Positions 31,431-44,112 of a stretch of DNA of 64,000 bases are shown here, in pieces (position 1 is the stretch's first letter; each line of letters starts with the position of its first letter). A model generated the notes under the pieces. That model did no database searches and was not told where the DNA came from. It saw only the letters and a program-made list of their open reading frames with translations. Source of the stretch: Chryseobacterium gleum (GTDB lineage: Bacteria; Bacteroidota; Bacteroidia; Flavobacteriales; Weeksellaceae); NCBI RefSeq assembly GCF_900636535.1, contig NZ_LR134289.1, forward strand, positions 2,046,001-2,110,000. The letters run 5' to 3'. Both the position numbers and the translations under genes were made by a program.

Positions 31431-33200
31431 TTAATACATCTTCTCTATAATATCTGCATATTTCTTAATTACCACATTTCTTTTGACCTTCAAAGTAGGG
31501 GTTATTTCTCCTGTATTGATATCAAATTCTGCCGGCATTAAGGTAAATTTCTTCACCTTTTCATAATCTGCCAGGTGGCTTTGTAATTCTTTAATTTTCT
31601 CCTTGTAAAGATCTATTACCTTTTCATTTTTCACAGCATCTTCCCAATTGGTAAAAGGAATATTATTCTTTTTGATATAATCCTGTAAAAACTCAAAGTT
31701 CGGAACGATCAACGCTGAAACAAACTGTCTTCCTTCTGCAATCAGCATGATCTGCTGAATGAAATTATTATTCGTCAGGAGGTTTTCAATCTGTTGCGGA
31801 GCAATATATTTCCCGTTGGACGTTTTCATAAGATCTTTGATTCTGTCCGTAATGATCAGGTTTCCTTTATCATCAAATGTCCCTGCATCACCGGTTTTGA
31901 ACCATCCGTCTTCGGTAAACACTTTCTGGGTTTCTTCAGGTTTTTTGTAATATCCTTTCATGATTCCGTTACCTCTTGCCTGGATCTCATCATTTTCCCC
32001 GATACGCATTTCTACGCCTGGCAATGGTTTGCCGCTGGTGCCATGCTCAAAATGAGTCAAAGGAAACAGCGTTAATGTAGCGGTAGTTTCCGTTAATCCA
32101 TAGCCCACAGTAACATGAATTCCTACTGATTCAAAGAAACGGGTAACTTCCGGCGAAAGTGATGCGCCACCACATGGCAAAAACCAAAGTCTTCCGCCCA
32201 TTTTTTCTTTAATTTTACTGAAGACCAGCATATCAGCAACAGATTCTTTCAGTTTTAATCCCAAAGGGACCTGTTTTTCATTTCTTCGCAGCTCGGCTGT
32301 TTCCCATCCGGTTTTAAGAGCCCAGTCAAAGATTTTCTTTTTCAAAGATGAACCTTCTTCCGCCTTTTCGAGGACTCCGGCATATACTTTCTGGAAAAAT
32401 CTCGGTACCGCACACATCGCCGTAGGTTTTACTTCTTCCAGTGCTTTGGCTACATTTTTAGGGTCTTCAAGGAAGTAAACACGCGCCCCGCCATATAAGC
32501 AAAGTAAGCTCCAGCTTCTCTCAAAAACATGGCTTAACGGTAAAAATGCCAGCGATAATTCTTCTTCAAAGTTTTTAAACTTAAAAAATTCAAAATGGGA
32601 ATCGAACGCTTTGATAAAATTTCCGTGAGTAAGCATTACTCCTTTTGGAATTCCGGTGGTTCCGGAGGTATAGATTAATGTGGCAGTATCATCATATTCC
32701 CTCTTACAGATCTCCAGCTTTGGTGAAGCTTTTGCTATAAAATCTTCCAGATAAAAGCTGTTAAATTCTTTTTTGATCCACACTGCTTTTTTGGAAATAA
32801 TAATCGTTTCCAGATTGTTTTCCTCTTTATGTAAAAGTTCCAGGCAGGCATCATACTGCATCTGGTTTCCTACTAAAACAACTTTAGCACCAGAATCGTT
32901 GATGATATGTTCTGCCTGTTCTGCATTATTGGTAGAATAAATAGGTACCGTAATAGCTCCGAGAGCCATTGAGGCCAGATCCATAATCATCCATTCGGAT
33001 GAATTGTCTGAATAAATAGCGACTCTGTCATTTTCCTGAACACCGGCTTCTTTTAAAGCATTGGCTGTTTTAAAAATAATCTCACTGAATTTCTTCCAGC
33101 TCAGCTCTTTCCAGGCTGCATCTTTCTTTTTAAATCCGATAGCCGCTTTTATAGGATGTTTTTCTACATTTTTAAGGATAATTGCCTCTGCAAGATTCAT
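31431..33200 (-). CDS. long-chain acyl-CoA synthetase (AMP-forming)
   Basis: A 589-residue adenylate-forming enzyme that activates fatty acids to acyl-CoA. Motifs in order: ATLIYTSGTTGIPKGVMLTH (AMP-binding), LSLAFLPLSHVFERSW, VGYGLTETTATLT, and WFKTGDAGTFDDKGNLIITDRIKDLMKTSNGKYI with the hinge and catalytic Lys-rich tail. It resembles the FadD15-like long-chain group. The start overlaps the end of the upstream epimerase by 4 bases, so both are translated from one mRNA, suggesting a lipid role for both. Confidence 0.92.
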   Translation of the reverse strand: MNLAEAIILKNVEKHPIKAAIGFKKKDAAWKELSWKKFSEIIFKTANALKEAGVQENDRVAIYSDNSSEWMIMDLASMALGAITVPIYSTNNAEQAEHIINDSGAKVVLVGNQMQYDACLELLHKEENNLETIIISKKAVWIKKEFNSFYLEDFIAKASPKLEICKREYDDTATLIYTSGTTGIPKGVMLTHGNFIKAFDSHFEFFKFKNFEEELSLAFLPLSHVFERSWSLLCLYGGARVYFLEDPKNVAKALEEVKPTAMCAVPRFFQKVYAGVLEKAEEGSSLKKKIFDWALKTGWETAELRRNEKQVPLGLKLKESVADMLVFSKIKEKMGGRLWFLPCGGASLSPEVTRFFESVGIHVTVGYGLTETTATLTLFPLTHFEHGTSGKPLPGVEMRIGENDEIQARGNGIMKGYYKKPEETQKVFTEDGWFKTGDAGTFDDKGNLIITDRIKDLMKTSNGKYIAPQQIENLLTNNNFIQQIMLIAEGRQFVSALIVPNFEFLQDYIKKNNIPFTNWEDAVKNEKVIDLYKEKIKELQSHLADYEKVKKFTLMPAEFDINTGEITPTLKVKRNVVIKKYADIIEKMY

Positions 33201-34210
33201 TTCTTCAGCTTTTTGTCGTTAATATAATTATTCAGGTGAAAGTCTATACTTTCTTTTACGGGAATAAACTGGTAATTCAGCTTTTCTTTGACTTTATGAT
33301 TGGAAATGGTGTTGAATGAAGATATGGCTTCAATATTGGATTTGGTCACCATTCTAAGTTTTGGAATCAGCCATCCGAAAAGGATGTTCGCTATTCTTCC
33401 GATGTTGAGTTGAGTTGGGGTAAGAATTTTTGCTTCTTTAAGCCCAAGACGGGTTCTGATCTGTCTGGCAAGGTCGGCATACCTGTTATTTTCCGCAACA
33501 ATGATAAACCGCTCTCCAAAAAGATTATTTTCCATGAGCCCGATTGCAGTATTGGCTACATCTCTTACATCAACGTAAGCAGAACCTCCTGAAAAGGTAA
33601 AGCTATTGTCTTCAAAGGTAGAGAAAAGCTCTCCGCTGCTTTGGTTCCAGTTTCCGCTTCCTACAATCATTCCGGGGTTAATAATAACGACATTCATTCC
33701 TTCCGCTGAAGCTCTCCAGGCTTCCATTTCAGATAAATGTTTTGAAATAGCGTATGCAGAGTGTTCCAGTTTTGGATTAAAGTCAGAATCTTCATCTAAT
33801 TCTCCTTTTTCATTAAAATTATCAAGAACAGCAACGGAACTTACGTGAAGAAATTTTTTAACGTCTGATCCTTCACAGGCAAACAGCAGGTTTTCTGTAC
33901 CCTTGATGTTGGTATGGTACATTTCTTTTTCATCTTTGGGATGAAAACTCACTTTTGCGGCACAATGATACACCTCATCTACCCCCTGCAGCGCAGTTTT
34001 CAAAGAGTCGAGATCATCAAAATCTACGTTTACCCATTCAATCTTATTAAAAAAATCATCAGGATTCTCCGTATAAAAGCTGTATGAATGCCTTACTTCG
34101 TTTAAATTGCTCCCCGGTCTTTTGGAAGCCCGTACATTTTTCCCTCTTTTAAGAAGTTCCAGTACAATTATTCTTCCCAGGATTCCGGTAGCACCCGTTA
34201 CAAAAATCAT
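33197..34210 (-). CDS. NAD(P)-dependent epimerase/dehydratase (extended SDR)
   Basis: A 337-residue Rossmann-fold protein. The cofactor loop FVTGATGILGRIIVLELL is at the N-terminus, VDEVYHCAAKVSFHP follows, and the SDR catalytic Tyr-Lys pair lies in SAYAISKHLSEMEAW; the C-terminal half binds the substrate. The N-terminal GxxGxxG and HCAA motifs are those of extended SDRs such as dihydroflavonol-reductase-like and 3-beta-HSD-like proteins. Coupling to the acyl-CoA synthetase suggests a lipid or sterol-like substrate, but this is inference. Confidence 0.85.
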   Translation of the reverse strand: MIFVTGATGILGRIIVLELLKRGKNVRASKRPGSNLNEVRHSYSFYTENPDDFFNKIEWVNVDFDDLDSLKTALQGVDEVYHCAAKVSFHPKDEKEMYHTNIKGTENLLFACEGSDVKKFLHVSSVAVLDNFNEKGELDEDSDFNPKLEHSAYAISKHLSEMEAWRASAEGMNVVIINPGMIVGSGNWNQSSGELFSTFEDNSFTFSGGSAYVDVRDVANTAIGLMENNLFGERFIIVAENNRYADLARQIRTRLGLKEAKILTPTQLNIGRIANILFGWLIPKLRMVTKSNIEAISSFNTISNHKVKEKLNYQFIPVKESIDFHLNNYINDKKLKK

Positions 34211-34407
34211 TAATTATTTACTTGATTGCTGACTAAAATATAACAATATTTTCTATCCGGCAATTCTTCCGGATCTGTAAAAACTCCTCAGAAAAACTGC
34301 TTCTGCAAATTTGCGATTTTTAAAGCATAATTCAATTTAATTTAACCAATATTATCATTCAGAAATCAATAAACAGGAAAAATATAACGACAGCTGAAGA
34401 GTAAAAG

Positions 34408-34446
34408 TAAAAGTCCTGAAAGAATTGACAGCTTTCAGGACTTCTA
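34408..34446 (-). terminator. terminator of the graspetide operon
   Basis: AAGTCCTGAAAG / CTTTCAGGACTT hairpin just past the second ATP-grasp gene on the minus strand, with an A-rich segment that is a U tail on that strand. The rest of the gap to the epimerase gene (34211-34407) is AT-rich with no feature seen. Confidence 0.75.
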
Positions 34447-34467
34447 TGATTACAAATTGCTTTGTTT

Positions 34468-35472
34468 TTAAGCCATTACTTCATTATTTCTTCTTGGAGC
34501 CTTGTCACACAAAACGTCTGCAATGCTTTTGGAAATAAGGTTTCCTTCTGTAAGATTATCCAGCCAGAAGAATTCTCCGGCAGCATTGATCTCAATGAAG
34601 TAATATTCGTCTTCGGGAGAAACAATCATGTCTATGGCTCCGTAGTCTACATTGTAAACATCAAGAAGTTCAAGCAGTTTTGCTTCCACATCTGCCGGAA
34701 GTTCTGTTCTGCTCCATTTATCGATGAGATTGACACCGTCTTTTCTCCAGTCTATTTTGGCATCTTCAGACTGCTGGGAATCTATTTCAAATGCATAGAC
34801 GTCTCTTCCCACAATGGTAATACGAAGTTCCTTTTTCTTTTGAATCATCTGCTGAAACTGCATAGGGCAATACAGCAGTGAATCCAGCTCTTCCAGTTTA
34901 TCTTCGCTTACAACATTGGTAAACACAACGTTTTCCACACCGTCTTCATAGATAGCAAAACCGGTCTGCATTTTGGCTACTACATTCTGATGCTTCAGAA
35001 TAAATTTTCTGGCTTCATCAGGGTTGTTGGTAAGGCAGGTTGCCGGAATCGTCAATCCTAATTTATCTGCTATTTTCAATTGTTCCTCCTTGCTGTCTAA
35101 TCTTCGGTATACACTTGGCTTTCCTAAAGAGTAAGCATCTACGGATTCGAAGAAACCAAAAAGGGTGTTGCGGATTTCCCCCATTGCGGCTCCGTAAAAT
35201 TTACTGTCCATTTCTTCTTTCAATCCTTTTCCGATATTGTAAGCTCTCCGGTACCAGATGGCAGAAATATCATCCAGACGGTGTTTTGCTTCAGGAGTTT
35301 CGAGAAAACTTACCCATTCTCCATCCTGAAAAATGGTGGAAAGTTTATTTTGCAAAGGATAAACATCAACATCAAAGCGGATAACTTCACAGTTATTTTT
35401 TTCAATGTATTCTGTAACTTTTTCAATGGAAAAGTTATCTGCGGTATGGGTTATAATTAAAATTTTATTCAT
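34468..35472 (-). CDS. graspetide ATP-grasp ligase, MvdD/MdnC-like (ester former)
   Basis: A RimK-fold ATP-grasp enzyme of 334 residues that would activate acidic side chains of the precursor core and join them to Thr and Ser hydroxyls (macrolactones), by analogy to MdnC/MvdD. Visible features: N-terminal KILIITHTADNFS, ISAIWYRRAYN, KPSVYRRLDSKEEQLKIADKLGL, the metal-binding region VDYGAIDMIVSPEDEYYFIEINAAGEFFWLD, which matches the (N)PAGEFFWL signature of this group. The start ATG at 35472 overlaps the upstream ligase by 8 bases; an in-frame start at 35517 lies deeper in that gene and is less likely. A terminator follows. Confidence 0.9.
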   Translation of the reverse strand: MNKILIITHTADNFSIEKVTEYIEKNNCEVIRFDVDVYPLQNKLSTIFQDGEWVSFLETPEAKHRLDDISAIWYRRAYNIGKGLKEEMDSKFYGAAMGEIRNTLFGFFESVDAYSLGKPSVYRRLDSKEEQLKIADKLGLTIPATCLTNNPDEARKFILKHQNVVAKMQTGFAIYEDGVENVVFTNVVSEDKLEELDSLLYCPMQFQQMIQKKKELRITIVGRDVYAFEIDSQQSEDAKIDWRKDGVNLIDKWSRTELPADVEAKLLELLDVYNVDYGAIDMIVSPEDEYYFIEINAAGEFFWLDNLTEGNLISKSIADVLCDKAPRRNNEVMA

Positions 35473-36421
35473 GGAAATTGATTCTTTTGATAAGATTATC
35501 GGCAATTCTTTCTGCAATGGGAAATCCCAGCTCTTTCTGCAGCATTCCCCATTCTCCCTGGGGATTGACTTCCAGAAAATAATAAGCTCCGTCTCTTCCT
35601 TTGATCATATCGATGGCTCCTAGATAAAGCCCCATTTCTTTCATCATAGAAGTAAGGCTGGCTTTTATAGTCTCAGGAAGTTCATAGGCTGACCAGAAAT
35701 ACCCTTCACGAGCTACCCTCCAGTCTGCATTTTCACTGTTATTGATCTTTCCTGTGAAGAAATCTCCGTCCACGTAGACAATTCTCAGCTCATATTCTTT
35801 GTCAATATATGGCTGGAAAATCATCGGGCAGTATGCAATATCAGAAAGGTGTTCAAGGGATTCTTCCTCAATAACTGTAGTCGAAATCATATTTTCTCCT
35901 GACATCGTTTTCGAGGTTACTCCATGAAGTTTGGCTATGGCTTTTCCCTGGCAGTACTGATGGAAAAATGTCGTTATTTTTTCTTCATCATTGGAGAAAA
36001 TCGTTTTGGGAATGGCTAAGTTATTTCTTTGTGCAGTTTTCAGCTGAAATATCTTGTTTCCGTCTACTTTCTTTTCGTTTTCATAAGGGTTGATCCAGGG
36101 AACATGTTCCAAGGCCGTCATCAGATTATACCTCAGGCTTCCATATTCGTTGAGAAAAATCCTTTCATAATCCTGATCCAGCTCTTCAGGAGCACTGATC
36201 CTCCAGGCTTTTCTGTGCCATACTCCTTTGATATCGTCAGAATGAATTGTATTTCCTGATTCATCTGTCAGTTCAAATGAGTTTTCACAGATGCTGATCT
36301 TCTGAAGATGGTTCAGTCGGTCGGAATTCAATCTGAAATAAGGAATATTTTTGGAGCTCAGATATTCGAAAAAGATGTCAATATTATAAAAATCCTGTGA
36401 GTGGGTGATGCAGAGAATCAT
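35465..36421 (-). CDS. graspetide ATP-grasp ligase, MvdC/MdnB-like (amide former)
   Basis: A second RimK-fold ATP-grasp ligase (318 residues). By family analogy it forms the lactam between Lys and an acidic residue of the core after the ester rings are made. It starts ILCITHSQDFYNIDIFFEYL, has DIKGVWHRKAWRIS (paralogous to the WYRRAY motif of its partner), CPMIFQPYIDKEYELRIVYVDG, and the metal and ATP site LGAIDMIKGRDGAYYFLEVNPQGEWGML. It is 73 bases downstream of the nearer precursor gene and overlaps the MvdD-like gene. Which ligase makes which bond is inferred from the family only. Confidence 0.9.
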   Translation of the reverse strand: MILCITHSQDFYNIDIFFEYLSSKNIPYFRLNSDRLNHLQKISICENSFELTDESGNTIHSDDIKGVWHRKAWRISAPEELDQDYERIFLNEYGSLRYNLMTALEHVPWINPYENEKKVDGNKIFQLKTAQRNNLAIPKTIFSNDEEKITTFFHQYCQGKAIAKLHGVTSKTMSGENMISTTVIEEESLEHLSDIAYCPMIFQPYIDKEYELRIVYVDGDFFTGKINNSENADWRVAREGYFWSAYELPETIKASLTSMMKEMGLYLGAIDMIKGRDGAYYFLEVNPQGEWGMLQKELGFPIAERIADNLIKRINFHE

Positions 36422-36494
36422 TTGCCGGTTTTATTAAAAAGGGAAACTTAATGTTTAAGTTTCCCTACTATTTTATTTAATATTCTGTCTGATC

Positions 36495-36719
36495 TTACAG
36501 TGGAAGGTTGATTACATCATCATCACCGTCAGATGGATATTTCATGGTTTGCATCATATCATCTTTCGGAGACGTTACCGTGTCTACTGTCGGCTTTGTG
36601 ATCAAATCTGTTTCGGCAAGTGTTATATCACCTCCGCCTTTTACTGTTTCAGGATCCTTCACCTGTTTTTCCAGGAATGATGCGAAAAACGGCTTCTTCT
36701 TTGAGTTGTTGCTTTTCAT
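36495..36719 (-). CDS. graspetide precursor peptide 1 (microviridin-type)
   Basis: A 74-residue peptide. The leader carries the ligase recognition motif PFFASFLEKQ at 10-19, equivalent to the PFFARFLE motif of microviridin leaders, and GGG at 28-30. The C-terminal core TMKYPSDGDDD at 58-68 aligns with the microviridin TxKYPSDxEE core. By analogy to microviridin J, rings would be T58-D64 and S63-D66 (esters) and K60-D67 (amide). The linker contains degenerate octads ETDLITKP (36-43) and TVDTVTSP (44-51). It is followed by the two ligase genes. Confidence 0.9.
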   Translation of the reverse strand: MKSNNSKKKPFFASFLEKQVKDPETVKGGGDITLAETDLITKPTVDTVTSPKDDMMQTMKYPSDGDDDVINLPL

Positions 36720-36769
36720 AATGTTTTAGTTTTGGTTTAAATATAATTTAGCTTATGTTATCTATATTA

Positions 36770-37006
36770 TCATACTTCTAAAACATCCTCATCACCGTCA
36801 GAAGGATATTTCATGGTTACATTATCATTATCAGGCTTGGTAACATTATCCTTAAGAGGAGTAGTGATCTGATCCTGAAGGGATGTCGTAATCTGATCTG
36901 CCAGCACAGAAGTAATACCTCCTCCTTTTACTGTTTCAGGATCTTTAACCTGTTTTTCCAGGAATGTAGCAAAAAATGGCTTCTTTTTTGAATTTTTGTT
37001 TTCCAT
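36770..37006 (-). CDS. graspetide precursor peptide 2 (microviridin-type)
   Basis: A 78-residue paralogue of the next gene. The leader is nearly identical (PFFATFLEKQ at 10-19; GGG at 28-30) and the core TMKYPSDGDED lies at 64-74, with expected rings T64-D70, S69-D72 and K66-E73. The linker is different: four octapeptide units LADQITTS (35-42), LQDQITTP (43-50), LKDNVTKP (51-58) and DNDNVTMK (59-66), the last supplying the core Thr and Lys. It is the first gene of the operon; 50 bases separate it from precursor 1. The C-terminal follower is V-L-E-V. Confidence 0.9.
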   Translation of the reverse strand: MENKNSKKKPFFATFLEKQVKDPETVKGGGITSVLADQITTSLQDQITTPLKDNVTKPDNDNVTMKYPSDGDEDVLEV

Positions 37007-37122
37007 AAGTTAATATTTTTATTGTTTTTTGAAAATCCAAAGTACAAAAATTTCAACTCATGGAGAAATAATATTAGTTTTTAATAAAATTTTAACATAA
37101 CACCCAAAATAAGAGTAAAATT

Positions 37123-37902
37123 TTAATCTAAACCAAGAAACTCCTTCACAACATTTGCAAAATCAACAGGATTTTCAGCCTGTACCCAGTGTCCTGCATT
37201 TTTTACTGTAACTATTTTAGCTTTAGGAAATTGTTGCTTGATTCCATATTCATCCTGCGGCAGAATATAATTGGATTTTGCCCCGGCTATAAACAATGTA
37301 TCTCCTTCAAAAACTCCGAATTTAACAGCATTGGATACAAATTCATTATATTTTTCAGATAGGGTTTTAAGATTAAATCTCCAGCCCAGTTTTTTATTGT
37401 CATCCCAATACAGGTTTTTCGTTAAGAACTGTACGGTAGACCTTTCAGGAATATATTGGTTCAGAACTGCTTCTACCTCGTTTCTTGAAGTTACCGTATT
37501 GAAATCAACAGTTTCCAAGGCTTTGATAATTCCCTGATGGTGTGGAGGATAGGCTTTAGGTGAGATATCTACAACAATCAATTTTTCAACACGTTCAGGA
37601 TATTTTATAGCAAACTGCATGACTGCTTTCCCTCCCAATGAATGTCCCAGAACATGGGCTTTCTGAATTCCGTAATGATCCATATAACGGGCAATATCAT
37701 CAGCCAAGTCATCATGAGACATGCTGTCTGAATGAAAGCTTCTGCCATGGTTCCTAAGGTCAATCAGATGTACCGGAAGGTATTCTCCGAGATCTTTTCC
37801 AAAGCTTCCCCAGTTGTCAAGCATTCCGAATAATCCGTGAAATACCAGAAGCGGCGTGGTCGTTAAATTTTCGCCGAATATTTTTGAGTTTAAAATTTCC
37901 AT
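37123..37902 (-). CDS. alpha/beta-fold hydrolase (YbfF-like)
   Basis: A 259-residue serine hydrolase. The nucleophile elbow GHSLGG, preceded by KAHVL, the oxyanion segment TPLLVFHGLFGMLDNWGSFGKDL and the late catalytic His in VKNAGHWVQAENP are all visible; the acid residue probably lies in VDISPKAYPP or just before GAKSNYI. It matches the YbfF-type esterase group. It sits upstream of the graspetide operon on the same strand, with 116 bases between, and a link to that pathway cannot be shown. Confidence 0.88.
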   Translation of the reverse strand: MEILNSKIFGENLTTTPLLVFHGLFGMLDNWGSFGKDLGEYLPVHLIDLRNHGRSFHSDSMSHDDLADDIARYMDHYGIQKAHVLGHSLGGKAVMQFAIKYPERVEKLIVVDISPKAYPPHHQGIIKALETVDFNTVTSRNEVEAVLNQYIPERSTVQFLTKNLYWDDNKKLGWRFNLKTLSEKYNEFVSNAVKFGVFEGDTLFIAGAKSNYILPQDEYGIKQQFPKAKIVTVKNAGHWVQAENPVDFANVVKEFLGLD

Positions 37903-43590: not shown

Positions 43591-44112
43591 TTAATGATGG
43601 CTGGCAGAGAACCTTTTCAGACTAAAAATAATATTGTCAGGGAAACCTTTATCTTTCTTTTCTTCCAATAAAATGAAATCATGTTTTAATAGAATCCCTT
43701 TTGAATTTTCATTAAATTTATTCGTAATAGCCAGAATTTCGTCTAAATTCAATTCATTAAAACCAAAATCCAAAACCGTTTTCAAAGCTTCCGACATAAT
43801 TCCCTGCCTGTGATATTCCGGCAGCAATTCATAGCCAACTTCTGCTGTTTTCCGGTCTTCAGAAAAATTCCAGAGACAGATGGTTCCGATAATTTTCGGC
43901 TGATCTTTTAAAGAAATTCCCAGATAGATGGTTTGGTTATTTTTAGTATTTTCTTTAATCGTCAGAATAAACTGGAGCGCATCGTAATTATTTTTAGGAG
44001 ACTTCCTAATGACGAACCGATTGATCACCTCATTGCTTCGGATTCGCAAAATATCATCAACATGACTTTCGTTGATATCTCTCAGTAATAATCTTTGGGT
44101 TTCCAGTTTCAT
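43591..44112 (-). CDS. GNAT family N-acetyltransferase (RimJ/RimL type)
   Basis: A 173-residue acetyl-CoA-dependent acetyltransferase. It starts KLETQRLLLRDINESHVDDILRIRSNEVINRF, the RimL-type opening, and has IGTICLWNFSEDRKTAEVGYELLPEYHRQGIMSEALKTVLDFGFNEL, which contains the acetyl-CoA loop Q/RxxGxxS/A (HRQGIMSEA). The acceptor, protein or small molecule, is not known. It is divergent from mutS2. Confidence 0.88.
   Translation of the reverse strand: MKLETQRLLLRDINESHVDDILRIRSNEVINRFVIRKSPKNNYDALQFILTIKENTKNNQTIYLGISLKDQPKIIGTICLWNFSEDRKTAEVGYELLPEYHRQGIMSEALKTVLDFGFNELNLDEILAITNKFNENSKGILLKHDFILLEEKKDKGFPDNIIFSLKRFSASHH

Follow-up and report, generated by a model that had tools for sequence, protein, structure and literature searches.

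The original chryseoviridin paper, published in JACS in 2021, reportedly described consecutive single rings with a microviridin-like core at the end. In the available passages of PMC8939145, chryseoviridin (cdn) loci of precursors, CdnB and CdnC are analysed in C. gregarium and related species, where they are flanked by an alpha/beta hydrolase and an epimerase; these passages present trees for both flanking genes and cover 47 species related to C. gregarium. According to the same passages, one to three further linkages could arise in the variable part of the core, and small core segments are often duplicated and lost. The available passages of PMC8151938 describe four Chryseobacterium genomes that share a conserved microviridin cluster and mention transport-related genes in it, which they leave unnamed. 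A literature search returned no paper naming an exporter or a terminator for chryseoviridin; the word "terminator" does not occur in the available passages of PMC8939145, and Fig. 7 or the supplements of that paper could show an in-locus exporter.

The locus described here comes from Chryseobacterium gleum (contig NZ_LR134289.1), from a stretch of 64,000 nucleotides at positions 2,046,001 to 2,110,000, referred to as the window. It occupies 34468-37006 on the minus strand in the order A1, A2, hairpin, cdnB, cdnC, terminator and sits between an alpha/beta hydrolase and an epimerase, as in the described cdn system. The features are listed below in window coordinates.

37123..37902, minus strand: flanking alpha/beta hydrolase, present in 26/26 genomes without cdn, probably outside the system
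36770..37006, minus strand: precursor A1, 78 aa, NF033738 70.8 bits (cut-off 26), PF12559 32.6 bits; leader PFFATFLE, VKGG followed by G, four extra TxxxxD units, then TMKYPSDGDED
36495..36719, minus strand: precursor A2, 74 aa, NF033738 73.1 bits (cut-off 26), PF12559 36.3 bits; leader PFFASFLE, VKGG followed by G, three extra TxxxxD units, then TMKYPSDGDDD
36440..36466, minus strand: terminator-like hairpin with T-run in the gap between precursors and ligases, same stem in 117 of 118 gaps
35465..36421, minus strand: cdnB, MvdC-type ATP-grasp ligase, predicted lactam ligase, 318 aa, TIGR04185 446.7 bits (cut-off 425)
34468..35472, minus strand: cdnC, MvdD-type ATP-grasp ligase, predicted ester ligase, 334 aa, TIGR04184 502.6 bits (cut-off 475)
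34401..34453, minus strand: end terminator, inverted repeat with arms 34401-34422 and 34432-34453 and a T-rich tail
33197..34210, minus strand: flanking SDR epimerase, present in 26/26 genomes without cdn, probably outside the system

The initial annotation had proposed two precursors and two ligases of the MvdC and MvdD types in one operon closed by a terminator, and all of these are in place: the four genes pass their curated family cut-offs, both precursors contain TMKYPSDGD, the PFFA[ST]FLE motif and, at residues 28-30, GGG, and the inverted repeat lies at the operon end. The start of cdnC was taken as the ATG at 35472, for which the list of open reading frames has an earlier TTG, and it overlaps the end of cdnB. 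The best PDB match of the cdnB product is 7m4s, AMdnB (194.2 bits); among solved structures CdnC is nearest to 7mgv, itself named CdnC (640.1 bits over residues 1-333). An Rfam search of 34200-37200 gave no match. It is near certain that this is a chryseoviridin operon of the graspetide, or microviridin, type. The suggestion that the gene set may be new does not hold, since loci of precursors, CdnB and CdnC are already analysed in the available passages of PMC8939145; neither the class nor the gene set is new.

The cdn locus of C. gregarium DSM 19109 agrees with that of the window in gene order, flanks, leader, multi-unit TxxxxD core and TMKYPSDGD end, and the two CdnC proteins are 83% identical. 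The number of precursors differs, with two in the window and four in C. gregarium; by eye, A1 looks similar to the first of these and A2 to the fourth. Among named genomes (a scan that may omit the record of the window itself), the best 80 of 118 relatives all carry the label Chryseobacterium, except for one metagenome bin labelled Weeksellaceae, and the CdnC copies of C. culicis and C. sediminis are 98% identical to that of the window.

The locus is ordinary in kind and close to core in the genus. Of 148 genus genomes, 122 have the precursor family; in a family-wide draw of 296 genomes, overlapping with this set, it occurs in 126, all from one of 33 genera. Loci were taken from 118 of the 122 genomes (the window and L068-L184), leaving out G021, G039, G050 and G124, in which the locus is split or on short contigs. 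The order pdxJ-like gene, hydrolase, precursors, cdnB, cdnC, epimerase, fadD-like gene is seen in 109 of the 118; in eight others the epimerase lies beyond the fetched range, among them G011 and G141, where two inserted genes precede it, and G012 and G051, where the contig ends; L184 was fetched too short for precursors and upstream genes. All 26 genomes without cdn have a clean empty site, with hydrolase and epimerase adjacent and 121-586 bases apart. Distances between ligases track those between flanking genes (Mantel r 0.894 across 117 genomes with G063 dropped; largest of 500 permutations 0.166), and together with the empty sites this means that the locus is mostly inherited vertically and is present or absent as a whole. 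Retention of the alpha/beta hydrolase at all 26 empty sites suggests that it is a chromosomal gene rather than part of the peptide pathway, and it was rejected as a tailoring enzyme for the window locus. The available passages of PMC8939145 report an alpha/beta hydrolase cluster often found in microviridin loci; that it is the same gene as here is a guess.

Whole-locus absence is common (26/148 genomes; eight changes by parsimony on the flank tree), as would be expected if the locus were a decaying remnant that has lost its exporter and now yields no secreted product. Such decay is very improbable, because both ligases score above curated cut-offs, the ligase phylogeny follows the flanks, and conservation of the precursor motifs and of the hairpin extends over the 117 loci whose precursors are visible.

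The loci yielded 276 precursors, one to five per locus, of which 272 carry the strict motif PFFAx[FL]LE. All of these 272 have GG at a fixed distance of 10 residues behind FLE and V or I at -4, while positions -3 and +1 vary. The GG within the GGG earlier proposed as a cut site is the likely one. The other four comprise three one-residue variants of the motif with GG and one fragment from G063. Two of the variants, the first precursors of L160 and L177 (G114 and G008), are open reading frames of 43 aa with leader and GG and without core, possibly precursor remnants. The hydrophobic positions of double-glycine leaders are given as -4, -7 and -12 in the available passages of PMC10885120. The cdn leaders agree with C39-exported double-glycine peptides at -4 (V or I in 272/272 scored precursors) and depart from them at the other two, with P at -7 in 257/272 and K at -12 in 264/272.

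The TxKxPSDxD core is found in both window precursors and, when S may replace T and R may replace K, in 274 of 276 across the genus. Ahead of the microviridin-like end, units matching [TS]x4[DE] average 3.32 per core against 0.89 in shuffled cores (272 precursors), most commonly spaced by 8 residues. By analogy with the further linkages counted in the available passages of PMC8939145, the extra TxxxxD units may represent possible additional linkages. The loss of three waters per core, as originally predicted, is probably too low because the window cores carry three to four such units. In the proposed pathway, both ligases would bind the PFFAxFLE leader, CdnC would close Thr/Ser-Asp ester rings both within the TxxxxD units and at the microviridin-like end, and CdnB would add a Lys-Asp/Glu lactam. 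The residue between T and K, which we take from established microviridin work to be the protease-facing position, is most often M (182 of 274 precursors), followed by L (71) and Q (15). This makes proteases like chymotrypsin, elastase or subtilisin likelier targets than trypsin, and the product is predicted to be secreted and to inhibit serine proteases, its reactive position being occupied by Met.

The initial annotation listed only the terminator at the operon end; a second terminator-like hairpin lies inside the operon at 36440-36466. Its stem GGAAACTTA...TAAGTTTCC with a T-run, allowing a few G-T variants, lies after the last precursor and ahead of cdnB in 117 of the 118 gaps, of which 117 come from genus loci with visible precursors and one from C. 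gregarium; the exception among the genus loci (116/117) is G029. The loop varies, and the pair just outside the stem is GC in 45, AT in 69 and GT in 3. Under a stricter stem-and-tail rule, 93/117 of the precursor-cdnB gaps pass, compared with 0/150 between precursors, 28/117 upstream of A1 and 29/100 behind cdnC, and the hairpin pattern has a single site in the genome of the window. A generic terminator scan of the region gave 4 sites against 2.9 in shuffles, so that the argument for a terminator rests on conservation. With only ~20 bases between the hairpin and cdnB, expression of the ligases probably requires read-through. The hairpin is a probable partial terminator, which would keep precursor transcripts in excess, and its conservation bears on how precursor and ligase levels are set. 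Besides the pairing, the stem sequence itself is nearly invariant in the 117 gaps; a protein-binding role in addition to termination is possible.

Neither an exporter nor a protease gene is present in the window locus, as first described. The accompanying statement that no GNAT gene lies nearby needs amending, as one (PF13302) is found at 43591-44112 in the window; it was ruled out as the operon's mdnD, being 6.6 kb off behind unrelated genes. Collecting the neighbours of the ligases in related genomes, as had been proposed, established that a missing in-locus exporter is the rule among cdn loci: 109/118 leave too little room for one behind cdnC or have other genes there, and two with a contig edge just behind cdnC cannot be judged. 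The remaining seven have a C39-peptidase ABC exporter whose open frame starts within ~20 bases of the cdnC stop. The peptidase Cys, His and Asp are kept in six of them, with Asn for Asp in G060. This protein occurs in only those 7 of 148 genomes, and the next match listed is at most 47% identical. In G141 (L284 5415-9277) and G011 (L285 2795-6659), two inserted genes, by eye TonB-receptor-like and 344-aa lipoprotein-like, fill the space from the in-locus exporter to the epimerase, which is accordingly farther downstream; they were taken as unrelated to the system, the epimerase being directly behind the exporter in the five other carriers. The seven genomes form one group in the CdnB and CdnC tree (support 0.987), and in the flank tree of 144 genomes they fall within one clade of 25 (support 0.995). 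Seven members of this clade have cdn, all with the in-locus exporter, and 18 lack cdn; outside it, the in-locus exporter is present in 0 of 111 cdn genomes of the flank tree.

It had been supposed that export and leader removal are encoded elsewhere or take another route, and encoding elsewhere is probable. Only two C39 proteins were found in the window's genome, ~2.15 and ~2.28 Mb away. The nearer, T1, is a C39-ABC exporter (C1:4235213-4237405) with HlyD-like and VKOR-thioredoxin-like genes as neighbours. Of 10 stretches viewed, eight (own L065, L275-L278, L280, L282 and L283, as opposed to L279 and L281) have small double-glycine open reading frames starting like MKNLKKLSR beside T1. T1 has a match at E = 0 in 139/148 genomes; all but that of G088 are among the matches listed, and these 138 have at least 87% identity. 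It is absent from eight genomes, all within the 25-genome clade; outside the clade, G063 (assembly 75% complete) has only a weaker or broken match. Five of these eight have cdn, with the in-locus exporter as their only C39, and three have neither cdn nor any C39, so that loss of T1 does not require an in-locus exporter; G053 and G064 have both exporters. The absences amount to five changes by parsimony, and their confinement to one clade means that the counts are not independent. With C39 proteins in 145/148 genomes, finding them in all cdn genomes is hardly informative, and T1 is also present in 23 of the 26 genomes without cdn. T1 is the best exporter candidate elsewhere in the genome, and export of cdn peptides by T1 is moderately probable. 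The modified precursors would exit via T1 with its HlyD and VKOR-like partners and would be cut after the VKGG motif, T1 serving mainly other double-glycine peptides.

The second C39 exporter lies in a radical-SAM/SPASM cluster (L066 5128-10976) with several Cys-rich small open reading frames, most with double glycine. Its existence in the window's genome allows that it processes the precursors. This is improbable, as that exporter has its own radical-SAM enzyme and small, mostly double-glycine peptides, and T1 is the only C39 found in 19 cdn genomes by a tally of the tables. Elsewhere in the genome, C1:4802474-4803761 (L067 7475-8762) encodes another ATP-grasp ligase of graspetide-like type (264.8 bits with TIGR04187, short of the cut-off of 350), with a 110-aa open reading frame before it and a 207-aa one after it. 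The group is flanked by a serine recombinase on one side and a 956-aa NB-ARC/TPR-like protein on the other, in what looks like a mobile island; a PADLOC search of this region gave no match.

What T1 otherwise carries is suggested by NF047798, a "bacteriocin-like protein" leader family. It has 33 matches (E up to 0.1) in the window's genome, where 56 of 69 candidates were scored, and at least 56 in several other genomes. The family is over its cut-off in 136/148 genomes; G011, G053, G060, G079, G099, G105, G116 and G141 have no match, and G029, G057, G090 and G143 are below the cut-off, as inferred from E-values. Among the T1-less genomes 0/8 are over the cut-off, against 136/140 of the others, G063 included (Fisher p 1e-10, uncorrected for kinship); the peptide adjoining T1 in the window's genome narrowly misses the cut-off (20.8 against 23.5). 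T1 thus seems to export this family. Such tracking makes T1 plausible as a general gate, yet it also explains the presence of T1 without cdn; the idea that T1 is retained because of cdn was not supported, as the NF047798 peptides alone explain its retention. The leaders differ as well: the T1-linked MKNLKKLSR..LKxIKGG peptides carry L at both -7 and -12, in place of the P and K of cdn leaders, so that recognition by T1 is not assured.

These points agree with an unlinked protease of a non-C39 kind removing the leader, or with a peptide that stays intracellular, GG being kept for ligase binding or by descent. The available passages of PMC13039773 note that many graspetide clusters are without an identifiable protease and describe a bifunctional protease, NosP, for class I microviridins. 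This explanation is possible but rather unlikely, since GG and V or I at -4 are kept in 272/276 precursors while -3 and +1 vary, a C39-ABC gene stands directly behind cdnC in seven loci of one clade, and the three genomes without any C39 are also without cdn. The preferred reading remains export through T1, and the pathway as a whole, from cdn operon, rings and attenuation to T1 export and inhibitor, is held with fair rather than high confidence. The chances are about even that T1 is a shared gate across nearly the whole genus, passing dozens of scattered and unrelated double-glycine peptides and, in trans, the chryseoviridins. The cdn operon could then lack its own C39 exporter because the gate exists, and the clade that repeatedly loses T1 and its peptides is the clade with the linked exporter. 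T1 offers one nameable gene in answer to the question of the missing exporter, and the in-locus exporter of one clade, with none in place elsewhere, provides a natural comparison.

Class III microviridins are defined, in the available passages of PMC13039773, by a longer precursor of which only the C-terminal part is microviridin-like and by a double-glycine motif; those of Bacteroidetes (chitinoviridin type) resemble the cdn peptides in all these respects. A C39 transporter often accompanies class II and III precursors (PMC13039773, available passages). Unlike that pattern, 109/118 cdn loci have no C39 transporter in place. The cdn operon is also close to the cyanobacterial microviridin operons (mdn/mvd), with which it shares the MvdC and MvdD ligases, the PFFAxFLE leader and the TxKYPSD core. 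Unlike the mdn/mvd layout, it has neither a GNAT gene nor an exporter, and it adds several extra TxxxxD units to the core.
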